NCBI GenBank assembly: GCA_016873255.1
Contig: VGXR01000005.1
Location: 1-64,000 of the forward strand
Direction: 5' to 3'
Length of the DNA: 64,000 bases
Origin: Planctomycetota bacterium
GTDB lineage: Bacteria > Planctomycetota > Phycisphaerae > Phycisphaerales > SM1A02
Both the position numbers and the translations under genes were made by a program. Shown in pieces: positions 4,607-63,662 of the stretch. A model generated the notes under the pieces. It saw only the letters and a program-made list of their open reading frames with translations. It was not told the origin of the DNA and ran no database searches. Position 1 is the stretch's first letter; each line of letters opens with the position of its first letter.

Positions 4607-6145
4607 ATGCCCGCTGCGCAGAATGCGGCCGTGAGGAGCGTCCGGCTCATGGTCGGACTCGAGATCCACGTCGAGCTGGCCACGCGCAGCAAGATGTTCA
4701 CCCGCGCGGGCAGTCCCGGGCACCCCGACTTCTACGACCGCGAGCCCAACTCGCTGGTGACGCCGACCGTCGCCGCGCTCCCCGGCACGCTGCCGGTGAT
4801 GAACCGCCGCGCCGTCGAGATGAGCATGATGGTTGGCCTGGCGCTCGGCTGCTCCATCGCGCGCCGGTCGAAGTGGGACCGCAAGAACTACTACTACCCC
4901 GACCTCCCCAAGGGGTACCAGATCAGCCAGTACGACCTGCCGCTCTGCCACGACGGCGCGTTCGAGCTGCCGCTCCCGGGCGGCGCCACCAGGCGCATCG
5001 GCATCATCCGCGCGCACCTCGAGGAGGACACCGGCAAGCTCGGGCATGAGCTCCCGGGCGGGTTCAGCTACGAAGGCTCGCTCGTCGACCTCAACCGCGC
5101 GGGGACGCCGCTCCTGGAGATCGTGACGGCGCCTGACTTCGACTCGGCCGACGACGTGGTGGCGTTCGCGCAGGAGCTGCGCGGGATCTGCAGGTTCCTC
5201 GGGGTCACCGAGGGCATCATGCAGAAGGGGCACATGCGGTTCGAGCCCAACATCAACGTGATCATCGAGCTCGAGGGCGGCGGCACCGTGAAGACCCCGG
5301 TGGTCGAGGTCAAGAACCTCAACTCCTTCAAGGCGCTCAAGGGCGCGATCGAGTTCGAGGCCGCGGCGCAGGTGGACCGCTGGCGCGAGGACGGCCGAGT
5401 GATGGGCCCGGGCGCCAAGAGCACGCGCGGCTGGGACGACGTGCGTTGCGCCACCGTGCTGCAGCGCGAGAAGGAGGACGCGCACGACTACCGCTACTTC
5501 CCCGACCCCGACCTCGTGCCGGTGACGGTGGACGATGCGTGGCTCGCGCGCGTGCGGGCCGAGGTCCCCGAGCTGCCGCACGCGCGCCGGGCGCGCTTCG
5601 TCGGGTACGGGCTGGAGGCGAAGGACGCGGCGGCGCTCGTCGAGGACCGCGAGCCGTGCCTCTTCTTCGAGCAGGTGGTCGCGGAGCTCGGCGGCGGCGC
5701 GAAGGCCGGCTACGCGGCCGGCAAGTTCCTCCTCAACCAGCTCTCCAAGCGTGCCAACGAGCTCGGCTGCGGGCTGCACCGCGCGGGGCTCACGGCCGCG
5801 CAGGTCGCGGGCATCGTGTCGCTGCGCGAGTCCGGCGCGCTCGGCGCGCAGAACGTCGATGCGCTGGTTGCGGCCATCGCGGGATCGGCGCAGGACCCGA
5901 AGTCCGCCGCCGAGGCCGCGGGACTGCTGGTGGTCCGCGACGACGCGGCCCTCGACGCGTGGGTCGACCGGGCGATTGCGGCGAATGCGCAGGCCGCCGC
6001 GGACGTGCGCGCGGGCAAGATGGCGGCGATCGGTCGCATCGTGGGTGCGGTGATGAAGCTCGCGGGCGGCACGGTCGATGCCAAGACCGTGAACGAGCGG
6101 ATCGTCGCACGGCTCAGGGTTGCACGGCTCGGGGAGGGCGCGTGA
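4607..6145 (+). CDS. gatB: Asp-tRNA(Asn)/Glu-tRNA(Gln) amidotransferase subunit B
   Basis: A 512-residue GatB, the tRNA-binding and kinase subunit of GatCAB, which amidates mischarged Glu-tRNA(Gln) or Asp-tRNA(Asn). The sequence opens VGLEIHVELATRSKMF and contains RKNYYYPDLPKGYQISQYD and VNRAG-type (VDLNRAGTPLLEIV) blocks diagnostic of the GatB cradle. It ends with a helical YqeY-like tail (GKMAAIGRIVGAVMK). Length is slightly above the usual 470-490. No Shine-Dalgarno is obvious; TATCAT sits 6 bp before the ATG, which suggests a very short or absent leader. It overlaps hpt by one base (TGATG), so the two are probably cotranslated. gatA and gatC are not in this window. Confidence 0.96.
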   Translation: MPAAQNAAVRSVRLMVGLEIHVELATRSKMFTRAGSPGHPDFYDREPNSLVTPTVAALPGTLPVMNRRAVEMSMMVGLALGCSIARRSKWDRKNYYYPDLPKGYQISQYDLPLCHDGAFELPLPGGATRRIGIIRAHLEEDTGKLGHELPGGFSYEGSLVDLNRAGTPLLEIVTAPDFDSADDVVAFAQELRGICRFLGVTEGIMQKGHMRFEPNINVIIELEGGGTVKTPVVEVKNLNSFKALKGAIEFEAAAQVDRWREDGRVMGPGAKSTRGWDDVRCATVLQREKEDAHDYRYFPDPDLVPVTVDDAWLARVRAEVPELPHARRARFVGYGLEAKDAAALVEDREPCLFFEQVVAELGGGAKAGYAAGKFLLNQLSKRANELGCGLHRAGLTAAQVAGIVSLRESGALGAQNVDALVAAIAGSAQDPKSAAEAAGLLVVRDDAALDAWVDRAIAANAQAAADVRAGKMAAIGRIVGAVMKLAGGTVDAKTVNERIVARLRVARLGEGA

Positions 6146-6711
6146 TGCAGTCGGATTCACCCGCCGCGCGTGCGTCGCTCGGCCGCGTCCTCGTTTCCGC
6201 CGAGCAGATCCGTGCGCGCATGCCCGAGCTGGCCCGCGACATCCAGGCGTGGGTGGGCGACGGCGAGGACGAGGTGGTGCTGGTGCCCGTGATGACCGGT
6301 GCGTTCATCTTCGCTGCCGACCTGGTGCGGCACATGCCCGTGCGCATGCGCATCTCGCTGGTGACGGTGTCGAGCTATCCCGGCGCGTCGACCACGAGCC
6401 AGGGCGTGCGCCCGCTCGGCGAGCTGCCCGCCAACCTGGAGGGGCGTCGCGTGCTGGTGATCGACGACGTGCTCGATTCCGGCCGGACGCTCCGTTTCCT
6501 GCGCGAGCAGTTCGCCTCGCAGCGGCCGGCGCGGTTCGCCACGGCGGTGCTGCTGCGCAAGACCATCCCCGCTGCGCTCGAGACGCCCTGCGAGTTCGTG
6601 GGCTTCGACATCCCCGACGAGTTCGTCGTCGGCTGCGGCCTCGACTTCGACGGATGCTTCCGCAACCTTCCCGACGTGCGGGTGCTGCACCCCAAGGGCA
6701 CGGGCGCGTGA
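6145..6711 (+). CDS. hpt: Hypoxanthine phosphoribosyltransferase
   Basis: A 188-residue purine-salvage phosphoribosyltransferase that converts hypoxanthine or guanine plus PRPP to IMP or GMP. The PRPP-binding loop is VLVIDDVLDSGRTL, with the acidic pair DD and the following S-G. VPVMTGAFIFAADLVRH and VSSYPGASTTS are the other family blocks, and the C-terminal GFDIPDEFVVGCGLDF is the base-binding region. The start overlaps the gatB stop (TGATG). The next gene starts on a GTG overlapping its stop (GTGA). Confidence 0.95.
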   Translation: MQSDSPAARASLGRVLVSAEQIRARMPELARDIQAWVGDGEDEVVLVPVMTGAFIFAADLVRHMPVRMRISLVTVSSYPGASTTSQGVRPLGELPANLEGRRVLVIDDVLDSGRTLRFLREQFASQRPARFATAVLLRKTIPAALETPCEFVGFDIPDEFVVGCGLDFDGCFRNLPDVRVLHPKGTGA

Positions 6712-7259
6712 CCGCGGGGATCCGCCGCACCCCGGTGCGCGCGCCGTTCGCGACCACCGCGATCGAGGAATCCGGCGTGCCGCTGTTCGCGGCTTCGATG
6801 CTCGAGCCCGCGGAGATCATCGTGGGCGTGTTCCGCCCGAGCCTGCTGTGGATCGCGTTCCGGTCGCTGCGCTGGCTCCTGGCGGTGTGCTGCATCGCGG
6901 TGCTTGCCATCACGCTGGGTGCGCTGGAGCCGTGGTCCGGCACCGTGCTGCAGATGGCGACGGCGGTCGCGGTGGCGCGCGTCGTGGTCGCGACCACGGA
7001 GTGGGCCAGCAGGGTCTACGTGCTCACCGACCGGCGCGTCCTGCGCCGGCGCGGCGTGCTGGCGCCGACCGTGTACTCGGCAAACCTCAACGCGCTGCGC
7101 CGCGTCGAGCTGCTGCAGGAGGGCGCCGACCGCGCGCTGCGCACCGGCACCATCACCTTCAGCACCCGAAGCGAGGGAACGTGGGATGCCGCGTGGGTCA
7201 TGGTGCCGCGCGCCCGCGAGGTGCTCGAGCTGGTGGAGTCCGCCCGCCGCAAGCGCTGA
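6708..7259 (+). CDS. Bacterial PH-domain membrane protein
   Basis: A 183-residue protein that starts on GTG overlapping the hpt stop. It has two adjacent membrane segments at about residues 55-95 (WLLAVCCIAVLAITLGAL and TVLQMATAVAVARVVVA), followed by a bPH2/YdbS-like beta domain with YVLTDRRVLRRRGVL. That motif, membrane helices then S/YxxLTxxRV, is characteristic of the PF03703-type family. The C-terminal helix EVLELVESARRKR completes the PH-like fold. Function in the family is poorly defined (membrane or envelope association). Its stop TGA coincides with the left end of an inverted-repeat element. Confidence 0.8.
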   Translation: MTAGIRRTPVRAPFATTAIEESGVPLFAASMLEPAEIIVGVFRPSLLWIAFRSLRWLLAVCCIAVLAITLGALEPWSGTVLQMATAVAVARVVVATTEWASRVYVLTDRRVLRRRGVLAPTVYSANLNALRRVELLQEGADRALRTGTITFSTRSEGTWDAAWVMVPRAREVLELVESARRKR

Positions 7260-7356
7260 ATCCGTTCCCGGCCGGTTTGGCACCAATTGACTGCTCCGGG
7301 GAATCGCGCCGTTCTCGGGAGAGAGGAACTGGTGCCAAACTAACCAGGGGCGAATC
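7259..7356. repeat. Inverted-repeat intergenic element, copy A (bidirectional terminator-like)
   Basis: The left arm (7259-7289) contains GTTTGGCACCAATTG. The right arm (7327-7356) is its inverted counterpart, AACTGGTGCCAAAC, continued by TAACCAGGGGCGAATCT. The arms are about 30 nt with roughly 22 identities, plus wobble pairs in RNA. The loop contains a TTCTCGGGAGAG palindrome. It fills the gap between convergent genes: the upstream TGA stop abuts the left end, and the right arm supplies the last five codons and the TAG stop of the dnaJ-like gene. The same half-site recurs at 15.5, 16.0 and 57.2 kb. Confidence 0.8.
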
Positions 7357-8320
7357 TCTCGCCGGACCTCGGGTTCGCGAGACGCGGGGCGAGTTCCTCG
7401 ACGAGGCGGCGCGTCTGGGCGTCCATCTCGCGCGGCGCCTCCACCTGGATCACCGCGTAGAAGTCGCCTGGCGTTCCCTTCGCGGGTGCGATGCCCTTGC
7501 CCTTCACGCGCAGGCGCTGGCCGCTCTTCACGCCCGCGGGCACCTTCAGCTGCACCGAGCCCTGCAGCAGCGGCACGCGCACGGTGGTGCCGAGCGCGGC
7601 CTCCGCGATGTTGAGCGGCACGTCCATGAGCACGTCGTTCTCCTCGCGGCGGAACCACGGGTGCGGCGTCACGGTGATCGTGATGATCAGGTCGCCCGCC
7701 TGCCCGCCGCGCGCGCCCGCGCCGCCCTTGCCGCGCACCGCGAGCTTGGCGCCGCTGCGGATGCCGGCCGGGATGCGCACCTCGATCGCCTCCCCGTTCA
7801 CGCGGAAGCTCCGCGTCCCGCCGAGCGCCGCGGTGAGGAAGTCGACGGTCTCGCTCGCGGCCGCGTCCGTGCCCTGGTGGGGCTCGTCCTCGGCATCGTC
7901 GAATCCGCCGAAGCCGCCGCGCCCACGTCCCCGCGCCCGCCCGCGCCCGCCGCCGAACATCGACCCGAACACCTCCTCGAAGGTCGACGGGTCCACGTTC
8001 TGCCAACCCTGCCCGCCGCCGCCGCCGCCAAACGGCCCCGCGCCGCCGAACGGATCGCCGCCCGCGCGTCCGCCGCCGGGCGCGCCGCCGCCGGCACCTG
8101 CGCGCACCCCGGCAATGCCGAACTGGTCGTAGAGCTTGCGCTTCTCGGGATCGGAAAGGATGTCGTAGGCGTCCTGGATCTCCTTGAAGCGCGCATCCGC
8201 TCCGGGATCCTTGTTGACGTCAGGGTGGTAGGTGCGCACCAGGCCGCGATGCGCCTTCTTGAGTTCGTCGGCGGATGCGGCCTTCGTGACGCCGAGGATC
8301 TCGTAGAGGTCGCGTTCCAT
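7340..8320 (-). CDS. DnaJ C-terminal domain protein, CbpA type
   Basis: A 326-residue type II (zinc-finger-less) Hsp40 co-chaperone that delivers clients to DnaK and stimulates its ATPase. The J domain occupies residues 1-70 with HPD in YHPDVNKD. It is followed by a long Gly/Phe/Arg-rich linker (about 75-135, GGGGGGQGW and RGRARGRGRGGFGGF), then a tandem beta-barrel substrate-binding region (about 150-310) with VRIPAGIRSGAKLAVRGKG and VPAGVKSGQRLRVKGKG. No CxxCxGxG zinc motifs are present. The last residues (RFAPG) are encoded by the arm of repeat element A. The start at 8320 gives the canonical MERDLYEILGV opening. Confidence 0.93.
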   Translation of the reverse strand: MERDLYEILGVTKAASADELKKAHRGLVRTYHPDVNKDPGADARFKEIQDAYDILSDPEKRKLYDQFGIAGVRAGAGGGAPGGGRAGGDPFGGAGPFGGGGGGQGWQNVDPSTFEEVFGSMFGGGRGRARGRGRGGFGGFDDAEDEPHQGTDAAASETVDFLTAALGGTRSFRVNGEAIEVRIPAGIRSGAKLAVRGKGGAGARGGQAGDLIITITVTPHPWFRREENDVLMDVPLNIAEAALGTTVRVPLLQGSVQLKVPAGVKSGQRLRVKGKGIAPAKGTPGDFYAVIQVEAPREMDAQTRRLVEELAPRLANPRSGERFAPG

Positions 8321-39508: not shown

Positions 39509-41957
39509 CGAGCACCGGCTTGATGGCTTCCTCGAGCGCAAGCACCGCGTAGACGGTGACCAGCTCCGCCTGGCCTTCCTGCCAGCGGTCGGCGCCGTTC
39601 ACCCAGCTCCCGTCCGGGCGCTGCGCGGCAAGGAGCGAGGCCACCAGGTCATTGCGCCAGTTGCGCTTCGTCCCCGCCGACTCGCCGGCGGTGGGCTCCA
39701 CGGTCGGCTGCCCGAACGCCCACAGCGCGCGCGCCGCGGCATGCAGGTAGTAGAAGCGTCCCTGCTGCCCCAGCCCCGGGTTCTCGGCGAATCCGTAGTT
39801 GCGGCGTATCCAGTCCCACGCGGCGGTGACGCGCGGGTCATCCGGCGCCAGTCCCGCGTAGAGCATGCTCTTGAAGCCGGCGTAGGTCATGCTGCCGTAG
39901 CTGCGCAGCGTGCGCGTGCCGGGCGGCATCTTCTCTCCGTAGCGGCCCTCGCCCGCGGCGTCGCTCGCGAAGCTCTCGCCTCCGTTCGCGGGCGTGTAGA
40001 CGAAGCCGCCGTCGGCCGTGCCGTTGCGCGCCCAGGAGGCGTCGTTGTCCATGGTGTTCTGCGTGCGCCTCACGAAGGCCAGGGCACGCTGCACGGCCGG
40101 GTCGTCGGTCGACATCCCGGCGTCGTGCAGCGCGTCCAGCATCAGCTGCGTGTTGGAGAGGTCGGGGCGGCCATGGTTGCCGTAGCCCGCACCGCCGAAC
40201 CAGTCGGCCTCGGGCGCGATGCCCTCCGCCTGGTCCCACTGGCTGCGCACGAGCCACTCGCGCACGCTCGCGATGCGCGGGGCGAGTTCCTCGTCCTGCT
40301 GCGCGGACAGGCCCATGAGGAGCATGCTGGCCACGTAGTTGGCAAGGCCGCCGCCGAGCTCCGGGTCGAACTTGCCGCCGGCACCGGTGGTGGAGAGGGC
40401 GTAGTCGAGCGCCTTGCGCGCGGTGGCGTCGGTGCGCGCCGCGAAGCCCGCCTGCGCGAACGCCTTGAGCGCAAGGCCCGTGACCGCCGCGGGCACCGCG
40501 GTGCTCGGCTTCGCCTGGTCGGTGGCCTTGGCGGCGGTGGACTCCATCCAGCCCCCGTTCGGGCCCTGCGTGCCGCGCAGGTAGTCGAGGCCCTTCACGA
40601 TGGCCGCGCGTGCCGCGTCGAACCTCGCGGGGTCCATCGGCACCTCGCTCGGGCGCTCGGCGATGCGCAGCACCACCGGGAGCGGCGCGCGCACGCGCGC
40701 CGGAACCGTGGGCACCGCGAGCGTGGTGATCCTGTCGCCCTTCACCCGCTCGTCGCGCGGGCCCGCGGGCGCGAGCACCTCGGCGCGCACGGCATCCGGC
40801 ACGGCGATCTCCCGCGCGCCGACGGGCTTGGCCTCGAGCCTGGGCATGGGCTTCTCGACCTTCGCGTAGATCAGGAAGTCGCTCTGGCGCGGCGTGGTGG
40901 CCACCGGCTGTCCGGGCGGCACCGGCGTCTTGGGGTCTGGACCCACGCCCACGAAGCGCAGCGGCGCAAGCACCATGCCCTGCGCGTCGGGCCGGGCAGT
41001 CACCCCCACGGCCACCAGGATGCCGTCCTCCGCGCCGGTCCGCTGCCCGAGGATCCGCGCCTCGAGCCGCGCGTCGGTGCTTGCCACCGAGTCGATGCGC
41101 ACGCCGTTGGCATGCTTGATCTCGACCTCGAAGGTCCTGGTCTCGCCGGGGGCGATCACGCCCAGGTTCTCGCGGTACTGCGCGAAGCTGAACGCCGGGT
41201 TGATGCGCGTGCACTCGTGGCGGACGCGCAGGTCGATGAGCCGGGCATCGGGGCGGTCGGTCTCGATCACCAGGTACTTGGGCACCTGCTCGCACGGGAG
41301 CGCGGAGAAGTCGTAGCGCACGCGGTAGCTCTCGCGCGGCTGCTGGTTGGCGGGGTCGAAGTCCACGTACGACGTGGGCAGGCCGCCGACTCCCGTCACC
41401 CGGAACGGCGCGCCGTCGATCGACTCGACCGTGATCTCGCCCTTGACGTTGGCCTTGTTGTCGAAGGCGTTGATGAACGGGTCGCGGCGCTGCTTGCCGT
41501 CGGGGCCCGTCGACATCTGGAACGCCCGCACCGGGTACGTCACCTCCGCGCGGATGGAGAGCTCCACCAGCCCGGGAACGTCCTTGAACATGAGCACGAC
41601 TTCCGCGGTCTTCTCGCCCGTGGCGCCGCTCGTGCGCATGGAGAGCGGGACGGTGATGGTGCCGCCCGCGGGGATCACCTTCCCGAGCATGTCCACCGTG
41701 GTGCACGTGCAGCTGGGCGAGCTGCGCACGCACGTCACCGGCCGGTCGAGGGTGTTCATGAGGGTGGCCTCGAACCTCACCTCGGTGTTCGGCCGCACCA
41801 GCCCCGCATCCAGCCGGGCCTGCGGCGTCTTGACCGGGCAGAGGGCCATCTGCTGGGCCACCTGCCGCGCGCGCTCGGCCATCTGCTGCTGCTGGGGCAG
41901 CGCGGAGGCGGGCATCGAGAGCAGGGCGGCAAGCAGTGCGGCAAGCGTGCGTTGCAT
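39498..41957 (-). CDS. Secreted DUF1573 / alpha-toroid (prenyltransferase-squalene oxidase repeat) fusion protein
   Basis: An 819-residue secreted protein. The signal peptide is at 1-20 (TLAALLAALLSMPASA). An N-terminal DUF1573-type beta domain follows (about 40-300: FEATLMNTLDRPVTCVRSSPSCTCTTVDM, GKVIPAGGTITVPLSM). The C-terminal half (about 460-815) is a helical repeat region like the squalene-cyclase/prenyltransferase toroid (GLDYLRGTQGPNGGW, DLVASLLAAQRPDGSWVNG, RALWAFG). No DxDD or zinc cluster was seen, so it is probably a binding scaffold. GGAG eight bases before the ATG at 41957 supports the start. Confidence 0.82.
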   Translation of the reverse strand: MQRTLAALLAALLSMPASALPQQQQMAERARQVAQQMALCPVKTPQARLDAGLVRPNTEVRFEATLMNTLDRPVTCVRSSPSCTCTTVDMLGKVIPAGGTITVPLSMRTSGATGEKTAEVVLMFKDVPGLVELSIRAEVTYPVRAFQMSTGPDGKQRRDPFINAFDNKANVKGEITVESIDGAPFRVTGVGGLPTSYVDFDPANQQPRESYRVRYDFSALPCEQVPKYLVIETDRPDARLIDLRVRHECTRINPAFSFAQYRENLGVIAPGETRTFEVEIKHANGVRIDSVASTDARLEARILGQRTGAEDGILVAVGVTARPDAQGMVLAPLRFVGVGPDPKTPVPPGQPVATTPRQSDFLIYAKVEKPMPRLEAKPVGAREIAVPDAVRAEVLAPAGPRDERVKGDRITTLAVPTVPARVRAPLPVVLRIAERPSEVPMDPARFDAARAAIVKGLDYLRGTQGPNGGWMESTAAKATDQAKPSTAVPAAVTGLALKAFAQAGFAARTDATARKALDYALSTTGAGGKFDPELGGGLANYVASMLLMGLSAQQDEELAPRIASVREWLVRSQWDQAEGIAPEADWFGGAGYGNHGRPDLSNTQLMLDALHDAGMSTDDPAVQRALAFVRRTQNTMDNDASWARNGTADGGFVYTPANGGESFASDAAGEGRYGEKMPPGTRTLRSYGSMTYAGFKSMLYAGLAPDDPRVTAAWDWIRRNYGFAENPGLGQQGRFYYLHAAARALWAFGQPTVEPTAGESAGTKRNWRNDLVASLLAAQRPDGSWVNGADRWQEGQAELVTVYAVLALEEAIKPVLVSE

Positions 41958-49830: not shown

Positions 49831-50003
49831 GCAGGTGTCCGGGGACGGTCGCATGGGTTGCACCAGTCCCTGATACGGAAGACGACGGCCGATCCATGCA
49901 GGTGCGGCGGACTTCCGCAGGCCGGCCGCGCGGCCGTCCGATAAGGGCAGGCGCCGAAACGACGATCCCCCGGGCCATGGCCGGGGGATGGTGCGCGTGA
50001 GAG

Positions 50004-50351
50004 TGGAGCCGAGGGGAGTCGAACCCCTGTGCCGAAACAGTCCGCACGGTGCCTCTACGCGTGTGTCTGCGGAACGATTGTCGTCCGGGCGTGTCCCCGC
50101 AGCGGGGCGCTCCGTTCCAAGACATGCGTCATCTCGACCCGCCGAGGCATGTCAGCCCATTGGGTCCAGCCTGATGTTTGACAGCGGCTCCCTTACTCAG
50201 GCGTGGGAGAGCTCGCTGCGTCGCCTAATTAGGCGGCGAGAGCGTACTGCGTGTTGGCAGTCGTAAGGTTTGCATGCTATTTACGTGGCCGGCATGCTCC
50301 ACGACGCGCCACACCGTGCGTTGCCTGTCCGGTCGATGCCGGTACGGCCCC
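50004..50351 (-). ncRNA. ssrA: Transfer-messenger RNA (tmRNA)
   Basis: The minus strand begins GGGGCCG (5' end at 50351) and ends CGGCTCCA (3' at 50004). The two ends form a 7-bp acceptor stem with one G-T pair, and the 3' part carries a T arm, AGGGGTTCGACTCCCCT. The tag reading frame at 50273-50229 encodes ANLTTANTQYALAA followed by TAA; the ALAA end is the standard degradation signal for ClpXP-type proteases. CCA is not encoded. This one-piece tmRNA is about 348 nt. The interval also contains G/C-rich pseudoknot-like inversions. smpB is not in the window. Confidence 0.95.
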
Positions 50352-57145: not shown

Positions 57146-57243
57146 GTCCGCTCCTTCTTAGCGTGGCGCCATTTTCCTGATTCAGAGACCCGGGCAGTTC
57201 TCTGGAGAAGGCAATTGGTGCCAACCTAACCAGGAGCGGATTT
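57144..57243. repeat. Inverted-repeat intergenic element, copy C (bidirectional terminator-like)
   Basis: The left arm AAGTCCGCTCC..GTGGCGCCA (57144-57175) and the right arm CAATTGGTGCC..CCAGGAGCGGATTT (57212-57243) match inverted over about 33 nt with roughly 26 identities. TTCTCTGGAGAA lies beside the right arm. The TAA stops of the prepilin-like gene (left) and acs (right) overlap the two outer tips. The 96-bp gap between these convergent genes is wholly occupied by the element. Confidence 0.8.
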
Positions 57244-59230
57244 ACTCGTCGCTCTCGCGCAGCTTGGCGAGGACGCCGAAGTCCTCGAGCGTGGTGGTGT
57301 CCTGCGTCGTTTCCTTGCCGGCGGCGATGTCGCGCAGCAGGCGGCGCATGATCTTGCCGCTGCGGGTCTTGGGCAGCGCATTGGTGAAGCGGATGACGTC
57401 GGGGCGCGCGATGGCGCCGATGTCCTTCGCCACGTGGTCCATCAGCCGGCGGCGCACCAGGTCGCCCGCGTCCTTCGCGTGGTCGGGGTGCAGCACGCAG
57501 AACGCCGCAACGCCCGTGCCCTTGATCTCGTGCGGCATGCCGACCACCGCCGCCTCCACCACCAGCTTGCTGCCGACGAGCGAGCTCTCGACCTCCGCCG
57601 TGCCGAGCCGGTGGCCGCTGACGTTGAGCACGTCGTCGATGCGCCCCATGATCCAGAAGTAGCCGCGCGAGTCGCGCCGCGCGCCGTCGCCGGCGAGGTA
57701 CATGCCCTTCACGCGCGACCAGTAGGTGTCGACGAATCGCTGGCGGTCGCCGTGCACGCCGCGCAGCATGCCGGGCCACGGCCGGCGGATGACGAGCAGG
57801 CCGCCCGTGTTCGCCGGCTGCTCGTGGCCGTGGTCATCGACCACCGCCGCGTCCACGCCGAACATCGGCAGGGTGCAGCTGCCCGGCACCGTGGGCGTCG
57901 CGCCGGGCAGCGGCGTGATCACGTGACCGCCGGTCTCGGTCTGCCACATGGTGTCGACGATCGGGCAGCGGCCGCCGCCGATCCGCTCGTGGTACCAGAT
58001 CCACGCCTCCGGGTTGATCGGCTCGCCGACGGTGCCGAGGACGCGCAGGCTGGAGAGGTCGTGCTTCGCCGGGTGCGCGTCGCCCCAGCGCATGAAGCTG
58101 CGGATCGCGGTGGGCGCGGTGTAGAAGTGCGTGGCCTTGTGCCGTGCCACGATGGACCAGAAGCGGTCCTCCGCCGGGAAGTTCGGCGCGCCCTCGTACA
58201 TCACCGTGGGCACGCGGTTCGGCAGGATGCCGTAGACGATGTAGCTGTGCCCGGTGATCCAGCCGAGGTCGGCGGTGCAGAAGTAGACCTGCCCTGACGC
58301 CGGCACCAGGTTGAACGTCCAGCGCGCGGTGGCCGCGGTGTAGACCATGTAGCCGCCCGTCGTGTGCACGATTCCCTTGGGCTTGCCCGTGCTGCCGGAC
58401 GTGTACAGCAGGAAGAGCGGGTGCTCGCTGTCGACCGGCTCGCACGCGCGCGTGGCGGGCTGCTTCGCGACGACGTCGTGCCACCATGCATCGCGGCCCG
58501 GCTTCATGGCGCAGTCGCCGCCGGTGCGGCGCAGCACCAGCACGTGCCGCACGTCCGGCAGCTTCTCGCACGCTGCGTCCACGTTCGCCTTGAGCGGCAC
58601 GACCGCACCGCGCCGCCATGCGCCGTCGCAGGTGACGATCAGCTTGCTCGCGGCATCCTGCACGCGGTCGACGATGGCCTGCGCGGCGAACCCGCCGAAG
58701 ATCACGCTGTGCGGCGCGCCGATCCGCGCGCACGCGAGCACCGCCACCGCAAGCTCCGGGACCATGCCCATGTAGATGGTCACCACGTCGCCCTTGCGCA
58801 CGCCGAGCGACTCGAGCGCCGCGGCGCAGCGGGCCACCTCGTCCCGCAGCTCTCGGTAGGTGATGCGGCGCACCTCCGGGCCGGCGGCACCGACGGGCTC
58901 GCCTTCCCAGATGATGGCGGTCTCGTCGCCGTGCCCCTCCTCCACCTGGCGGTCGACCGCGTTGAAGCACGCGTTGGTGGTGCCGCCGACGAACCACCTC
59001 GCATCGGGCAGCTCCCACTCGAGCACCTTGGACCACGGCGTGAACCAGCGGAAGCCGCGCGCGACCTCGGCCCAGAAGCCCTCCGGGTCCTTCATGGAGC
59101 GTTCGTGCATGGCCGCGTACGTGGCCATGTCGGGCACCTGGACCGTGCCCATGCGCGCGGCGAAGTCGGCCGGCGGCGGGAAGACGCGGTCCTCGGTCAG
59201 GACGGAACGGATGGAGGCGGAGCCGGTCAT
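57242..59230 (-). CDS. acs: Acetyl-CoA synthetase
   Basis: A 662-residue AMP-forming ligase making acetyl-CoA from acetate. ATP/AMP loop YTSGSTGKPKGIVHT, acyl-adenylate segment MWQTETGGHVITPLPG, hinge GRIDDVLNVSGHRLGTAEVES and the acetylation-regulated lysine in RSGKIMRRLL are all present. A usual Acs N terminus (VFPPPADFAARM) follows the ATG at 59230. The TAA stop is part of element C. Confidence 0.97.
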   Translation of the reverse strand: MTGSASIRSVLTEDRVFPPPADFAARMGTVQVPDMATYAAMHERSMKDPEGFWAEVARGFRWFTPWSKVLEWELPDARWFVGGTTNACFNAVDRQVEEGHGDETAIIWEGEPVGAAGPEVRRITYRELRDEVARCAAALESLGVRKGDVVTIYMGMVPELAVAVLACARIGAPHSVIFGGFAAQAIVDRVQDAASKLIVTCDGAWRRGAVVPLKANVDAACEKLPDVRHVLVLRRTGGDCAMKPGRDAWWHDVVAKQPATRACEPVDSEHPLFLLYTSGSTGKPKGIVHTTGGYMVYTAATARWTFNLVPASGQVYFCTADLGWITGHSYIVYGILPNRVPTVMYEGAPNFPAEDRFWSIVARHKATHFYTAPTAIRSFMRWGDAHPAKHDLSSLRVLGTVGEPINPEAWIWYHERIGGGRCPIVDTMWQTETGGHVITPLPGATPTVPGSCTLPMFGVDAAVVDDHGHEQPANTGGLLVIRRPWPGMLRGVHGDRQRFVDTYWSRVKGMYLAGDGARRDSRGYFWIMGRIDDVLNVSGHRLGTAEVESSLVGSKLVVEAAVVGMPHEIKGTGVAAFCVLHPDHAKDAGDLVRRRLMDHVAKDIGAIARPDVIRFTNALPKTRSGKIMRRLLRDIAAGKETTQDTTTLEDFGVLAKLRESDE

Positions 59231-59392
59231 GCGGGGCAACTTACCGCGGGCGCGCGGACCGGCGGGGGAGCCGCCGTCGGCGGCGCGCCCGGCGACCGGC
59301 GCGGCCGAGCGGGAACTTCTGCCGTGCCCACCGATGCGCTTCCGCACGGCCCGTACCGTCAGCCGCGTGTGGAACCGAAGGAGGATGACGGG

Positions 59393-59893
59393 ATGGAACG
59401 GACCGATCGAGGATGGTTCGCCGCGCCGGTGCTCGCGGCCGTGATGGCATGGATCCCGGACGCACCGCCGGCCGTTGCGGGGCCGCATGCCGAGCAGGGG
59501 CCCGCGGCCGTGACCTGCCCGCTGGTGCGTGCGGGCACGCGCGTGGTGTGCCGCGTCCCCGAGGACACGTGCGACAGCGGATTCGTCACCTCGTACGCGG
59601 CGTGCATCAACGACACGGCGACCGACGGCAGCCCGGGCGTGCTCGCGGAGGCGTTCCGGCCGGTGTCGCAGGGCGGCCGGTTCCGGGTGAACGTGGAGCC
59701 GTGCCCGGTCGAGGTGACGGTGTACCGGTGCAGCTGCACCCCGCTGGGCGACTACTGCGCGTTCGGGAGCCAGTGCAAGCGGACGGCGGTGATCTCCGGC
59801 ACGGTGATCCCGCCCGACGCCTATGCGCTCGCCGTGCCGTGCGGACCCAACTCGCCCCTGCCGCCCGGCCCGACCGGGCCGATGGTCGCATGA
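59393..59893 (+). CDS. Secreted cysteine-rich protein of unknown function
   Basis: A 166-residue protein with a signal-like N terminus (APVLAAVMAWIPDAPPAVAG), ten cysteines between residue 40 and 155 (including TCPLVRAG, DTCDSG, YRCSCTP and SQCK) and a Pro/Gly-rich end. The even Cys count suits disulfides in an extracytoplasmic protein. AAGGAGG is 8 bp before ATG 59393. Its stop overlaps the next start (ATGA), so it leads a three-gene coupled operon. I do not recognise the family. Confidence 0.65.
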   Translation: MERTDRGWFAAPVLAAVMAWIPDAPPAVAGPHAEQGPAAVTCPLVRAGTRVVCRVPEDTCDSGFVTSYAACINDTATDGSPGVLAEAFRPVSQGGRFRVNVEPCPVEVTVYRCSCTPLGDYCAFGSQCKRTAVISGTVIPPDAYALAVPCGPNSPLPPGPTGPMVA

Positions 59894-61734
59894 GGGCTGC
59901 GCTGCTCCTTGCGGCGGCGCTCCTCGGTGACGGCGCGGCGCAGCTGCCCCGCGCCGCCACCGACCTCGGGCGCATCGACCCGCCGTTCGCCGAGCCGATC
60001 CAGGCGAGCGTCCTCGTGCGCAACGCGGGCGCGGCGGAGGCGGCGATCGACCGCGCCGTGCCGCACTGCGCGGGCTGCACGCGCATCGCGTCCGCGCCGC
60101 GGTCGATCCCCGCGGGCGGGACCGGCGAGGTGCGCCTGCTCCTCGAACCGGGGCGGTCGCGCGGTCGCCTCCGCTTCGGGGCCACGCTCCTGAGCGGCGG
60201 TGCGCCCTAGTGCACGGCCGAGGTCACGATGCTCGTGCCGGGGATCGACGCCGGCGCGTCCGGTGCGATCGACCTGGGGAACGTGGCGCCGGGCGCCGCG
60301 ATCGAGCGCGCAATCCCGGTTCGGATCGTCGCCGCGCCCGGGGCGGCATGCTCGGCCGTCGCGCGCGGCGACGCGGCGCGCGCGTGGTTCGAGTCCGGCG
60401 GGGCTGCGGGCGTGCCGCTCGGCCACGGGCTCGAGGAGCGGCGCGGTCGCGCGGTGGTCGCGATCGAGGTGCCGCCCGAGGCGCCCGACGGTGCCATCGA
60501 GCGGGCGGTGGACATCGAGCTCTCCGAGGGCGGCCGGGTGGTCGACCGATCGCGCGTCATGGTCCGTGCGACGATCACCCGCCCGTCCGCGGCCGAGCCG
60601 GCGGCGCTGTTCGTGACGGCGTCGGCGGATGGGGGCGAGCGCGAGTTCGAGGTCCTCCTGCCCGCGTGCGGCGCACGGGTCGAGGCGGAGGGCGCCAGGA
60701 TCCTGGGCGTCGTCGTGGACGGCGCGGGCTCGAGGGTGAGGCTGATGCCGGACGTGGCCGCCGGTGAGTGGGCGCGCGGCGTGCGTCGGGGCGTGATCCG
60801 CCTCCGATGCGGTGCCGCGGCACACGATGTCCCGTGGCTCGGCTGCGACCTCGATCCCGCCGACCCCCCGCCGACGCCCGCCGCGCTCCGGGAGGTCATC
60901 GCCTTCAAGCGCGACATCGTCCGGGCGTCCACCAGCGCCTACCTCGAGGACACCTTCGTGGCCGCCGAGTTGCTGCGCGGACCGCCTCCCGGCGCCCCGC
61001 CCGGGACCGGCGTCCGGATCCGGCGCTGGGTCCACCGGAGCCATGACGGCTGCTTCCGCACGACGGCCATCCGTCCTGACGGTGCGCAGGGCGTCGATGT
61101 CACGGTGAGCGACGGGCGCATGGAGGCGCGCGGCGGCCGTGATGGCGCGGTGGCGGTCCGGGAGGAGGCAGGCGCCGCCGGGCACGCGCTGCGTGCCGAG
61201 TGGGAAGCCGTCGCGGGCATGCTCGGGTCGGTCGCCCGCGGGACGGCGCGCGATGGGCTCGAGGACCTCGCGGAGGCGATTGACCGGGAACCCGCGGGCG
61301 CCGTGCAGGTGGCATGGGATGCCCCCGAGGAGGGCGGCCGCGCGCTCCTTCGCGTCACCCTCGGCGGCGGCTCGCCGATGCGCGTCTGGCTGGACCCGGG
61401 CCACGGGCTCGCGGTGGTACGCCGCGCGCAGTCGGTCGACGACGGGTCCGTCGTCGACCGCGTGGCCTGGACGGCCGATTCGTTCTTCGCGACGCCGTGC
61501 GGCATCGAGCTTCCCGGACGCGTCCGCTCGATCCAGGAGCGCGGCCCCGCCGCCGCCGAACATCACGGCGCACCGCACCGTACCGTGCACGAGCAGGCCA
61601 TGCGTTGCCTGGCGTTCCGGATCGACCCGCCCGCGGGCGAGGTCGATCGGTCGCCGGAGCGGTGGTCGGAGCAGGTGCGGCAGCAGGCCCTCGCCATGTG
61701 GGACGAGGGGTGCCCGCGGCAGGAGCATCCATGA
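59890..61734 (+). pseudogene. Secreted protein with DUF1573-like N terminus, interrupted by in-frame TAG
   Basis: From ATG 59890 (overlapping the preceding stop) a signal peptide and a beta domain (DLGRIDPPFAEPIQASVLVRN, HCAGCTRI) run to a TAG at 60208-60210. The same frame then continues without a stop to 61734: CTAEVTMLVPGIDAGASG and IDLGNVAPGAAIERAIPV, plausibly the other half of the same beta-sandwich. A start at ATG 60229 could restart translation but would lack a signal peptide. CAG to TAG or GAG to TAG would be the simplest single-base change. The C-terminal half holds no motif I know. Either a nonsense mutation or a sequencing error. Confidence 0.68.
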
Positions 61735-63662
61735 CGATGAGGCATCCGCGCGTGATCCAGGTCCGTCGCACCATCGTGCTGGCCGCCGGCATCTCGGCGT
61801 GCGCCATCGGCGCCGTCGCGCGGCCGGCCCGCGCGCAAGGTTGCTTCGGGCCCCCGGTGCCGACCGTCTCGCCCGCGGACGCCGTCGCGCTCGCGCGCGC
61901 CTGCGGCGGCGGCGACGGAGGGATCGCCGTGGCGCTCGCGCTCCAGTCCGACCGGTTCGCGGAGTGGTCCGCGCGTTGGGAGGGCGGAGCCGAGCCCGGC
62001 GGCGCGGAGGCCTTGTGGCTCCGCGTGCTCGGCGCCCGGCGCGATGGGTCCGGCAAGGTCATGGCCGCGGATGCGCCGCGGCTGCGGGCCTCCGGGCAGG
62101 CCGCGCGCGACGACCTCGCGGTCCAGCGCCGCGCGGACCGTGCACTCCTCGACGCCATCGTGGCGAACGCGTGCCCGGGCGGCAACGTGGCCGCGGTCCG
62201 CGCGCGCGCCGCGGCGATCATCCGCCGGCCAATGATCTTCGAGACCCGCGGCGTCCTCGTCACCGACCCGCTGCAGTTCCTCGAGTGCGACCCGGCGGTC
62301 GTGGCGCGCCTCGTGTCGCTCGGCGGCGGCGAGGCGCTCGCCGCCGCTGGGAAGTCAGTTGAGGAGGCGTTCGCGGCACGGCAGCTCGTGGCGGTCAACC
62401 GGATGCTCGAAGCCGCCCTCGACAACTCGGATCCGTGGAACGACCCGAAGTTGGATGCGGCGAGCGACGGCGTATGGTCCGCGTTCGGGCGCGCCTCCCA
62501 GGCGATCGGGGCCGTGGACCCTGCCGCGGGCGCGTGGCTGCGCCTCCGCGCCGCGAACGACCGCGCCTCGAAGGCGCCGCCCCGCACGCCCACGGAAGAC
62601 GAGATTGCCGCGCGCATCGGCCAGGTTCCCCTCGAAGATGGCGACGGCGAGTTGGAGCGATACGCCGCCCGCCGGAAGGCCCTGCTCGACGACCTGCTCA
62701 CCCAGCGCCGCCGGCTCGAGCGCGCGGCCTCGCGGATGGAGGCCGCGCTTGAGTCGGTGGTCACGCAGCCGCCGACGCCGGAGATCCTCGCGCTCGGTGC
62801 GCGCCTGGCCCCGGATTCCTCCGCGATCGCCGCGGCCCTCGACCGGGACGGGCCGCTCGACGCGCGTGACGTCGACCGCCTCTCCGCCCGCGCGGCGGCG
62901 GCGGCAGAGGAGGTGCTCGCCGCGGTGCCGTCGCCGCGGACGTTCGCCGTCCGGCCCGGCGAGGTCTATCGGCTTGCCTCGTGGGTGATGGAGCCGTGGA
63001 TCCTCGAGTCCAACGACGAGGCGGAGGGCTGCGACTGCAAACCGACCGCGTGGCTCGAGACCGGCTGGCCGGCGCACGCGGCGCTCGCCTGCGTCGATGT
63101 CGGCACCATCGCCGGCTGCGCGGCCGTCGATCGGTCGCCGCACTGCAAGGCGCTCGCCGCGCTCAACGCGGAGCGCGCATCGATCCCGCTGGGGCAGGGC
63201 GACCCGGCCGCCGCGGAGCAGCTGTCGGACCTCTTGCGGCGGGCCCGCGACCGGATGTTCGCCGCGCTGCGTGCCTCGATCGCCGCGCTGCCCGACGCCG
63301 AGGCCCAGCCGGAGCGGCGCGCCGCGGCGCTGCGGGGGTGGTGCCTCTCCGCGTTCCCCGGGCTGCGCCAGGTGCACGACGACGCCGTCCGCGACATCCG
63401 CGCGGCCGGCCCGCAGGACGCGGATGCGCGCATCGCCGCGATGGACCGCGCCGTCACGGGCGCGATGGAGCGCATCTTGGCGATGTCCCCCGGGTCCGCG
63501 ACGCAGGATCCCGCCGCCGGCCTCCGCGCGGTGCTCGGGTCCCAGGCCGCGCTCCGGTCCGTGGCCAACGCGTTCGAGCAGGCGGCCGCATCCCTGGCGC
63601 CTCCCCCGGCCGACGACGGCGTGGGCGCGATCGGAGCACGCCTCCGCGACGAACTGCCGTAG
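61731..63662 (+). CDS. Large secreted helical protein of unknown function
   Basis: A 643-residue protein with a signal peptide (VRRTIVLAAGISACAIGAVARPARA) and mainly alpha-helical sequence rich in Ala, Arg and Asp. A long amphipathic helical part (about 300-360: YAARRKALLDDLLTQRRRLERAASRMEAALESVV) suggests a coiled coil. A Cys pair (EGCDCKPTAW) and scattered Cys may form disulfides. The ATG overlaps the end of the broken upstream gene (ATGA). No domain is recognised. Confidence 0.65.
   Translation: MTMRHPRVIQVRRTIVLAAGISACAIGAVARPARAQGCFGPPVPTVSPADAVALARACGGGDGGIAVALALQSDRFAEWSARWEGGAEPGGAEALWLRVLGARRDGSGKVMAADAPRLRASGQAARDDLAVQRRADRALLDAIVANACPGGNVAAVRARAAAIIRRPMIFETRGVLVTDPLQFLECDPAVVARLVSLGGGEALAAAGKSVEEAFAARQLVAVNRMLEAALDNSDPWNDPKLDAASDGVWSAFGRASQAIGAVDPAAGAWLRLRAANDRASKAPPRTPTEDEIAARIGQVPLEDGDGELERYAARRKALLDDLLTQRRRLERAASRMEAALESVVTQPPTPEILALGARLAPDSSAIAAALDRDGPLDARDVDRLSARAAAAAEEVLAAVPSPRTFAVRPGEVYRLASWVMEPWILESNDEAEGCDCKPTAWLETGWPAHAALACVDVGTIAGCAAVDRSPHCKALAALNAERASIPLGQGDPAAAEQLSDLLRRARDRMFAALRASIAALPDAEAQPERRAAALRGWCLSAFPGLRQVHDDAVRDIRAAGPQDADARIAAMDRAVTGAMERILAMSPGSATQDPAAGLRAVLGSQAALRSVANAFEQAAASLAPPPADDGVGAIGARLRDELP

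Follow-up and report, generated by a model that had tools for sequence, protein, structure and literature searches.

An in-frame amber codon within a secreted-looking two-part gene of a Phycisphaerales bacterium

The locus and its reading frames

The window analyzed here is a stretch of 64,000 nucleotides (contig VGXR01000005.1, positions 1 to 64,000) from a Planctomycetota bacterium of the order Phycisphaerales. Toward its end lie three genes, all on the + strand, with overlapping stop and start codons. The upstream gene (59393..59893) encodes a small, Cys-rich protein with a signal-like N terminus, 166 residues long from a start that was picked for its Shine-Dalgarno-like sequence. Its stop overlaps the start of the second gene, referred to here as the A-B gene for its two parts, in an ATGA at 59890-59893. 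The A-B gene is interrupted. A first open piece of 106 residues (59890..60210, +) is closed by an in-frame amber codon, TAG, at 60208..60210 (+), residue 107 of the frame. The second open piece, counted from the first in-frame ATG (60229..61734, +), has 501 residues and covers the remainder of part A plus part B. Another ATGA, at 61731-61734, joins the stop of the A-B gene to the ATG (61731) of the downstream gene (61731..63662, +), which has its own AGGAG upstream and encodes 643 residues with an N terminus that looks signal-like by eye. The initial annotation had described ATGA overlaps at both junctions of the interrupted gene, and they are present at these positions; the genes on either side are intact. 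The assembly, probably derived from a metagenome, is a draft of 152 contigs with 97.48% completeness, and the contig with the TAG is 77,943 bases long, with the site away from its end.

The TAG, which comes after 106 codons, is the sole stop between ATG 59890 and the TGA at 61732-61734; the 507 codons 3' of it contain no second in-frame stop. Across 59890-61734, the other two forward frames have 7 and 6 stops, and one antisense frame has none. An opposite-strand frame of 635 codons (59821-61728), which has a mixed coding score, was considered and set aside as the mirror image that GC-rich genes usually produce. GC content by codon position is similar on either side of the TAG (0.80/0.64/0.94 before and 0.80/0.58/0.91 after) and in the downstream gene (0.79/0.58/0.93). 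The training set for a codon score consisted of 224 open frames drawn from 375,854 bases of the genome (the window and 20 further stretches), and the piece after the TAG is itself among them. This score is above zero in 13/13 blocks of the A-B frame (the final block is short). In both alternative forward frames and one antisense frame, every block falls below zero, and the remaining two antisense frames give a mixture. The locus thus displays what is expected of a gene interrupted by a nonsense codon, namely, an open, coding-like frame flanking a single stop.

Does the coding signal establish that the two pieces are one gene? The 60 codons before the TAG score 12.3 and the 60 codons after it score 18.2; in gene interiors, the 5th percentile is -0.8, the 25th is 19.2, and the median is 27.7. 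Both flanking scores are above the 5th percentile and below the 25th, so codon usage by itself is no proof of an interrupted gene, and the decisive point is homology to an intact relative (locus L026, described below). Of 1305 candidate stops scored in the genome sample, 23 have coding-like sequence on both sides; these were inspected by eye. The number of TAG triplets on both strands of the window, 270 observed versus 291 expected from shuffles, is unremarkable.

Part A is Ig-like and resembles DUF1573, while part B is without a recognized fold. The 106-residue piece begins with an N terminus judged by eye to be signal-like and contains the greater part of one DUF1573-like domain. Residues 23-93 match positions 7-74 of the 98 in the PF07610 (DUF1573) profile, with scores of 23.0 bits for the 106-residue piece and 18.8 bits for the read-through frame, neither of which reaches the gathering cutoff of 26.1 bits. 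The match stops 13 residues short of the final residue that precedes the TAG and is not extended past the TAG when the stop is read as X, so the continuity of the domain rests on homologue alignments. These place the TAG in a variable turn that leads into the final strand of the first Ig-like domain and at no domain boundary, and a low-confidence structural model agrees that it falls inside the domain. For the piece after the TAG, part B included, there was no Pfam match at E values up to 1. The predicted fold of the read-through frame is poor, with a mean pLDDT of 45.1 and residues 87-113 below 50; part B folded separately reaches 38.6. A PDB fold search with the weak read-through model gave, among the best 50 of 1921 matches, chains of the ciliary central-pair apparatus first, followed by cadherins, RAGE, and other repeat proteins, at TM-scores by query of 0.11-0.20. 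On the basis of the model, part A may be called beta-sandwich-like and nothing beyond. A solved structure related by sequence was not found, nor was literature linking DUF1573 with Planctomycetes. The window has a further DUF1573 domain at 41541-41822 (-), scoring 40.7 bits, above the cutoff, in a frame of 844 codons.

Relatives of the A-B gene

The second half of the A-B frame is matched in 3 of 61 genomes: its own, one of the same genus (G005), and one of the same family (G015). The match in the same genus lies at L026, on contig CAMDUT010000011.1 of a MAG labelled Phycisphaera mikurensis by its depositors (isolate LE-05nov19-197); G005 and L026 are treated as one locus. Its A-B frame is uninterrupted, with 811 codons from stop to stop and 709 residues from the chosen start. 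The 106-residue piece of the window aligns to L026 4704-4976, and the sequence after the TAG aligns, in the same frame, to 4986-5603 and 5778-6704. Identity over the whole read-through is 38%, and this is the only full-length homologue that spans both sides of the TAG. The gene context is the same as well. The upstream gene has a homologue at L026 4199-4594 (41% identity), residues 31-372 of the downstream gene match 6797-7798 (33% identity), and pilin-like and dockerin-like genes are nearby in both places. Common to the two loci, then, are the two-part A-B protein and the genes upstream and downstream of it, while L026 differs in having no stop in the A-B gene. The initial annotation had proposed that the TAG splits the frame of one protein. 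With the TAG as the sole stop and the L026 homologue contiguous in one frame, that proposal stands, and the alignments identify the window locus as one gene, interrupted.

The two loci differ in other ways. Between its A and B parts, L026 has some 75 residues that are absent from the window frame (60811-60840, compared with L026 4608-6734). Given these missing residues, it is possible that the A-B gene was already undergoing change when the stop arose, or that it carries a defect besides the stop. Moreover, 12 of the 14 genomes of the genus that were searched, several of them incomplete, have no A-B match, so that the gene looks dispensable. An acetyl-CoA synthetase gene, acs, is found on the - strand both in the window (57242-59488) and in L026 (8561-10549), with 87% DNA identity. 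It comes before the three-gene block in the window and after it in L026, and gene order therefore varies within the genus.

How rare is such a stop among more distant relatives? In the family, there are 21 matches in 15 of 181 genomes, and an inner stop is found in 1 of the 21, that of this genome. In the order, with the A part as the query, 31 matches in 28 of 400 genomes again include a single one with an inner stop, and it is again this genome's. Eight of the 31 exceed 150 bits (5 of these 8 also supplied the query alignment), and the other seven of the eight run through the TAG position; some weaker matches end near it. The column at the TAG in 12 aligned homologues contains W, P, L, K, R, or N in 10 and gaps in 2, with Trp in the closest homologue. 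A smaller alignment gives W, L, L, and T, so the placing of the column depends on the alignment. The column is variable, lying in a turn between two strands, and does not reveal the ancestral codon. The initial annotation had suggested a transition from CAG to TAG; with Gln in 0 of the 12 homologues, CAG is not supported. Among the loci compared, L089 (G100:C6) and L090 (G177:C262) are from genomes of two genera and have A proteins that are nearly identical over the stretch shown. This likeness possibly comes from a stray contig, since G100 is listed at 7% contamination.

In G184, G180, and G183, three genomes from another genus of the same family, neighboring but distinct genes encode A and B (L010 1492-3489, L013 1-2013, and L014 95-2160). 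The A proteins have 315-358 residues and the B proteins 330-353, and the genes are separated by 3 nt in two loci and overlap by 4 nt in one. As in the window, homologous A and B are adjacent on one strand; unlike in the window, each gene has its own start, and the boundary separates A from B instead of falling within A. The join corresponds to about residue 310 of the window frame, some 200 codons past the TAG. Orthologues with two separate genes had been named in the initial annotation as the finding that would speak against one interrupted gene. They exist in form, but with the boundary near residue 310 and not at 107, and they do not explain the break. The occurrence of fused and split forms in different genera suggests that A and B belong together and may work together. 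As an observation in its own right, a secreted-looking A/B pair that is fused in one genus and separate in another represents a gene fusion or fission.

Translation at and after the amber codon

Might the TAG be read as an amino acid? The 47 predicted tRNAs of the genome, which cover the 46 Rfam places, include none with a CUA anticodon. That tRNA set has gaps, as tRNA-Asn is also missing from the 47 in this 97.48% complete genome. The best profile score for PylS was 17.2 bits against a cutoff of 178.15. An RF1-like protein is present at 331.3 bits, under the curated cutoff of 423.25, with the PAT motif at the expected place. The terminators of the 224 sampled frames are TGA in 188 cases, TAG in 28, and TAA in 8. 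TAG is an ordinary terminator in this genome, and neither a loss of RF1 nor an avoidance of TAG was found. Inner stops in this genome number 0 in 45 matches to ABC_tran and 0 in 21 matches to N_methyl. The RNA around the TAG is not unusually stable (z -0.96), and a dedicated RNA structure at this site was rejected as well. Taken together, the tRNA set, the PylS and RF1 searches, the use of stop codons, and the absence of inner stops in these two families make recoding of TAG very unlikely, and it was dropped as a candidate. Selenocysteine uses UGA and so has no bearing on the TAG here. A table in one review includes a DUF1573 selenoprotein (PMC9312934). Elsewhere in the window, a tmRNA gene at 50001-50351 (-) is detected with Rfam at 107.4 bits and is absent from the ARAGORN output for the same window.

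What, then, of ribosomes that terminate at the TAG? Four start codons, in any frame, lie within 40 nt of it, and the only one with a Shine-Dalgarno-like match is the ATG at 60229, 18 nt past the TAG, which is preceded at a spacing of 4 nt by GAGGT (60220..60224, +). A review describes bacterial reinitiation in vivo with a radius that exceeds 40 nt, using the first start that has a Shine-Dalgarno-like sequence ahead of it (PMC5972666). As ATG 60229 alone within 40 nt has such a match, weak reinitiation there is plausible, and this site, named in the initial annotation, is the likeliest one. Also as anticipated there, the product of about 500 C-terminal residues (501) has no signal peptide that can be seen by eye; it begins inside a domain. 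A Shine-Dalgarno-like match is found at 4 of the 33 internal ATG/GTG codons of the A-B gene, 60229 included. In addition, the same GAG codon recurs in G005 at the equivalent place, with no ATG after it, so the GAGGT element is explained by protein coding.

Origin and meaning of the stop

What kind of event leaves an in-frame stop, a frame that is open and coding-like to either side of it, an intact homologue, and neighbors that have been kept? The probable answer, and the one we favor, is a recent nonsense allele interrupting one secreted-looking two-part gene. That the stop is a real feature of the genome and not an error in the consensus, that it is recent, and what becomes of the products are our inferences. 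The A-B gene would encode a secreted-looking protein in which an Ig-like, DUF1573-like part A is fused to part B, and a premature amber codon would have interrupted it recently in this genome, an event whose recency the 507 further open codons fit. Ribosomes starting at 59890 would halt after 106 residues, and their product would be exported as a fragment without the last strand of the first domain. A minority of ribosomes may reinitiate at ATG 60229, giving a 501-residue cytoplasmic product.

A consensus with one wrong base would look identical to a nonsense allele. It is rather unlikely, though to be taken seriously, that the TAG is such an error or a minority strain variant and that the population has a sense codon and an intact gene. 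The draft state of the assembly would fit this, as would a frame that stays open and coding-like for all of the codons past the TAG; nothing direct speaks against it, the site being well inside its contig. A different proposal is that the split is functional, with translation stopping at the TAG and reinitiating at ATG 60229 to yield two intended polypeptides, one of them exported. This is possible by virtue of the start signal, the sole positive evidence for it, which lies within the distance reported for reinitiation in vivo. It is nevertheless improbable, given that similar matches occur at other internal codons, that the GAG is accounted for by the protein, that the break is inside a domain and leaves the second product without a signal peptide, and that none of the other matches in the order is interrupted. 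Should the TAG further be fixed in the species, it would divide a formerly single exported protein in two, a fragment that is still exported and a cytoplasmic A'-B protein made by reinitiation. We regard this as highly improbable; if it were true, one nonsense codon would change the cell compartment of the second half, and nothing here requires it.

Programmed readthrough, or decoding of the TAG as an amino acid by way of pyrrolysine or a suppressor tRNA, would agree with a frame that is open on either side. It is extremely unlikely in a genome with no CUA tRNA, no PylS, an RF1-like protein, TAG as an ordinary terminator, and no inner stops in 66 matches to two other families, and the variable residue column and the RNA z value also tell against it. 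Equally remote is the idea that two real genes of separate origin share a frame by chance. The three genomes with separate, adjacent A and B genes lend it some appeal, but their boundary lies well downstream of the TAG, the 106-residue piece is part of a domain that continues past the stop, and L026 contradicts it.

Bacterial pseudogenes and null alleles made by premature stops typically have one in-frame nonsense codon in a frame that is otherwise open, with the neighboring genes kept. The same features are seen here, and nothing was found that sets the window gene apart. The simplest account is either a nonsense allele that arose recently in a single lineage or an incorrect consensus base, and the finding is real but ordinary. 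Annotations should enter the pair of open frames as a single interrupted gene instead of two proteins.
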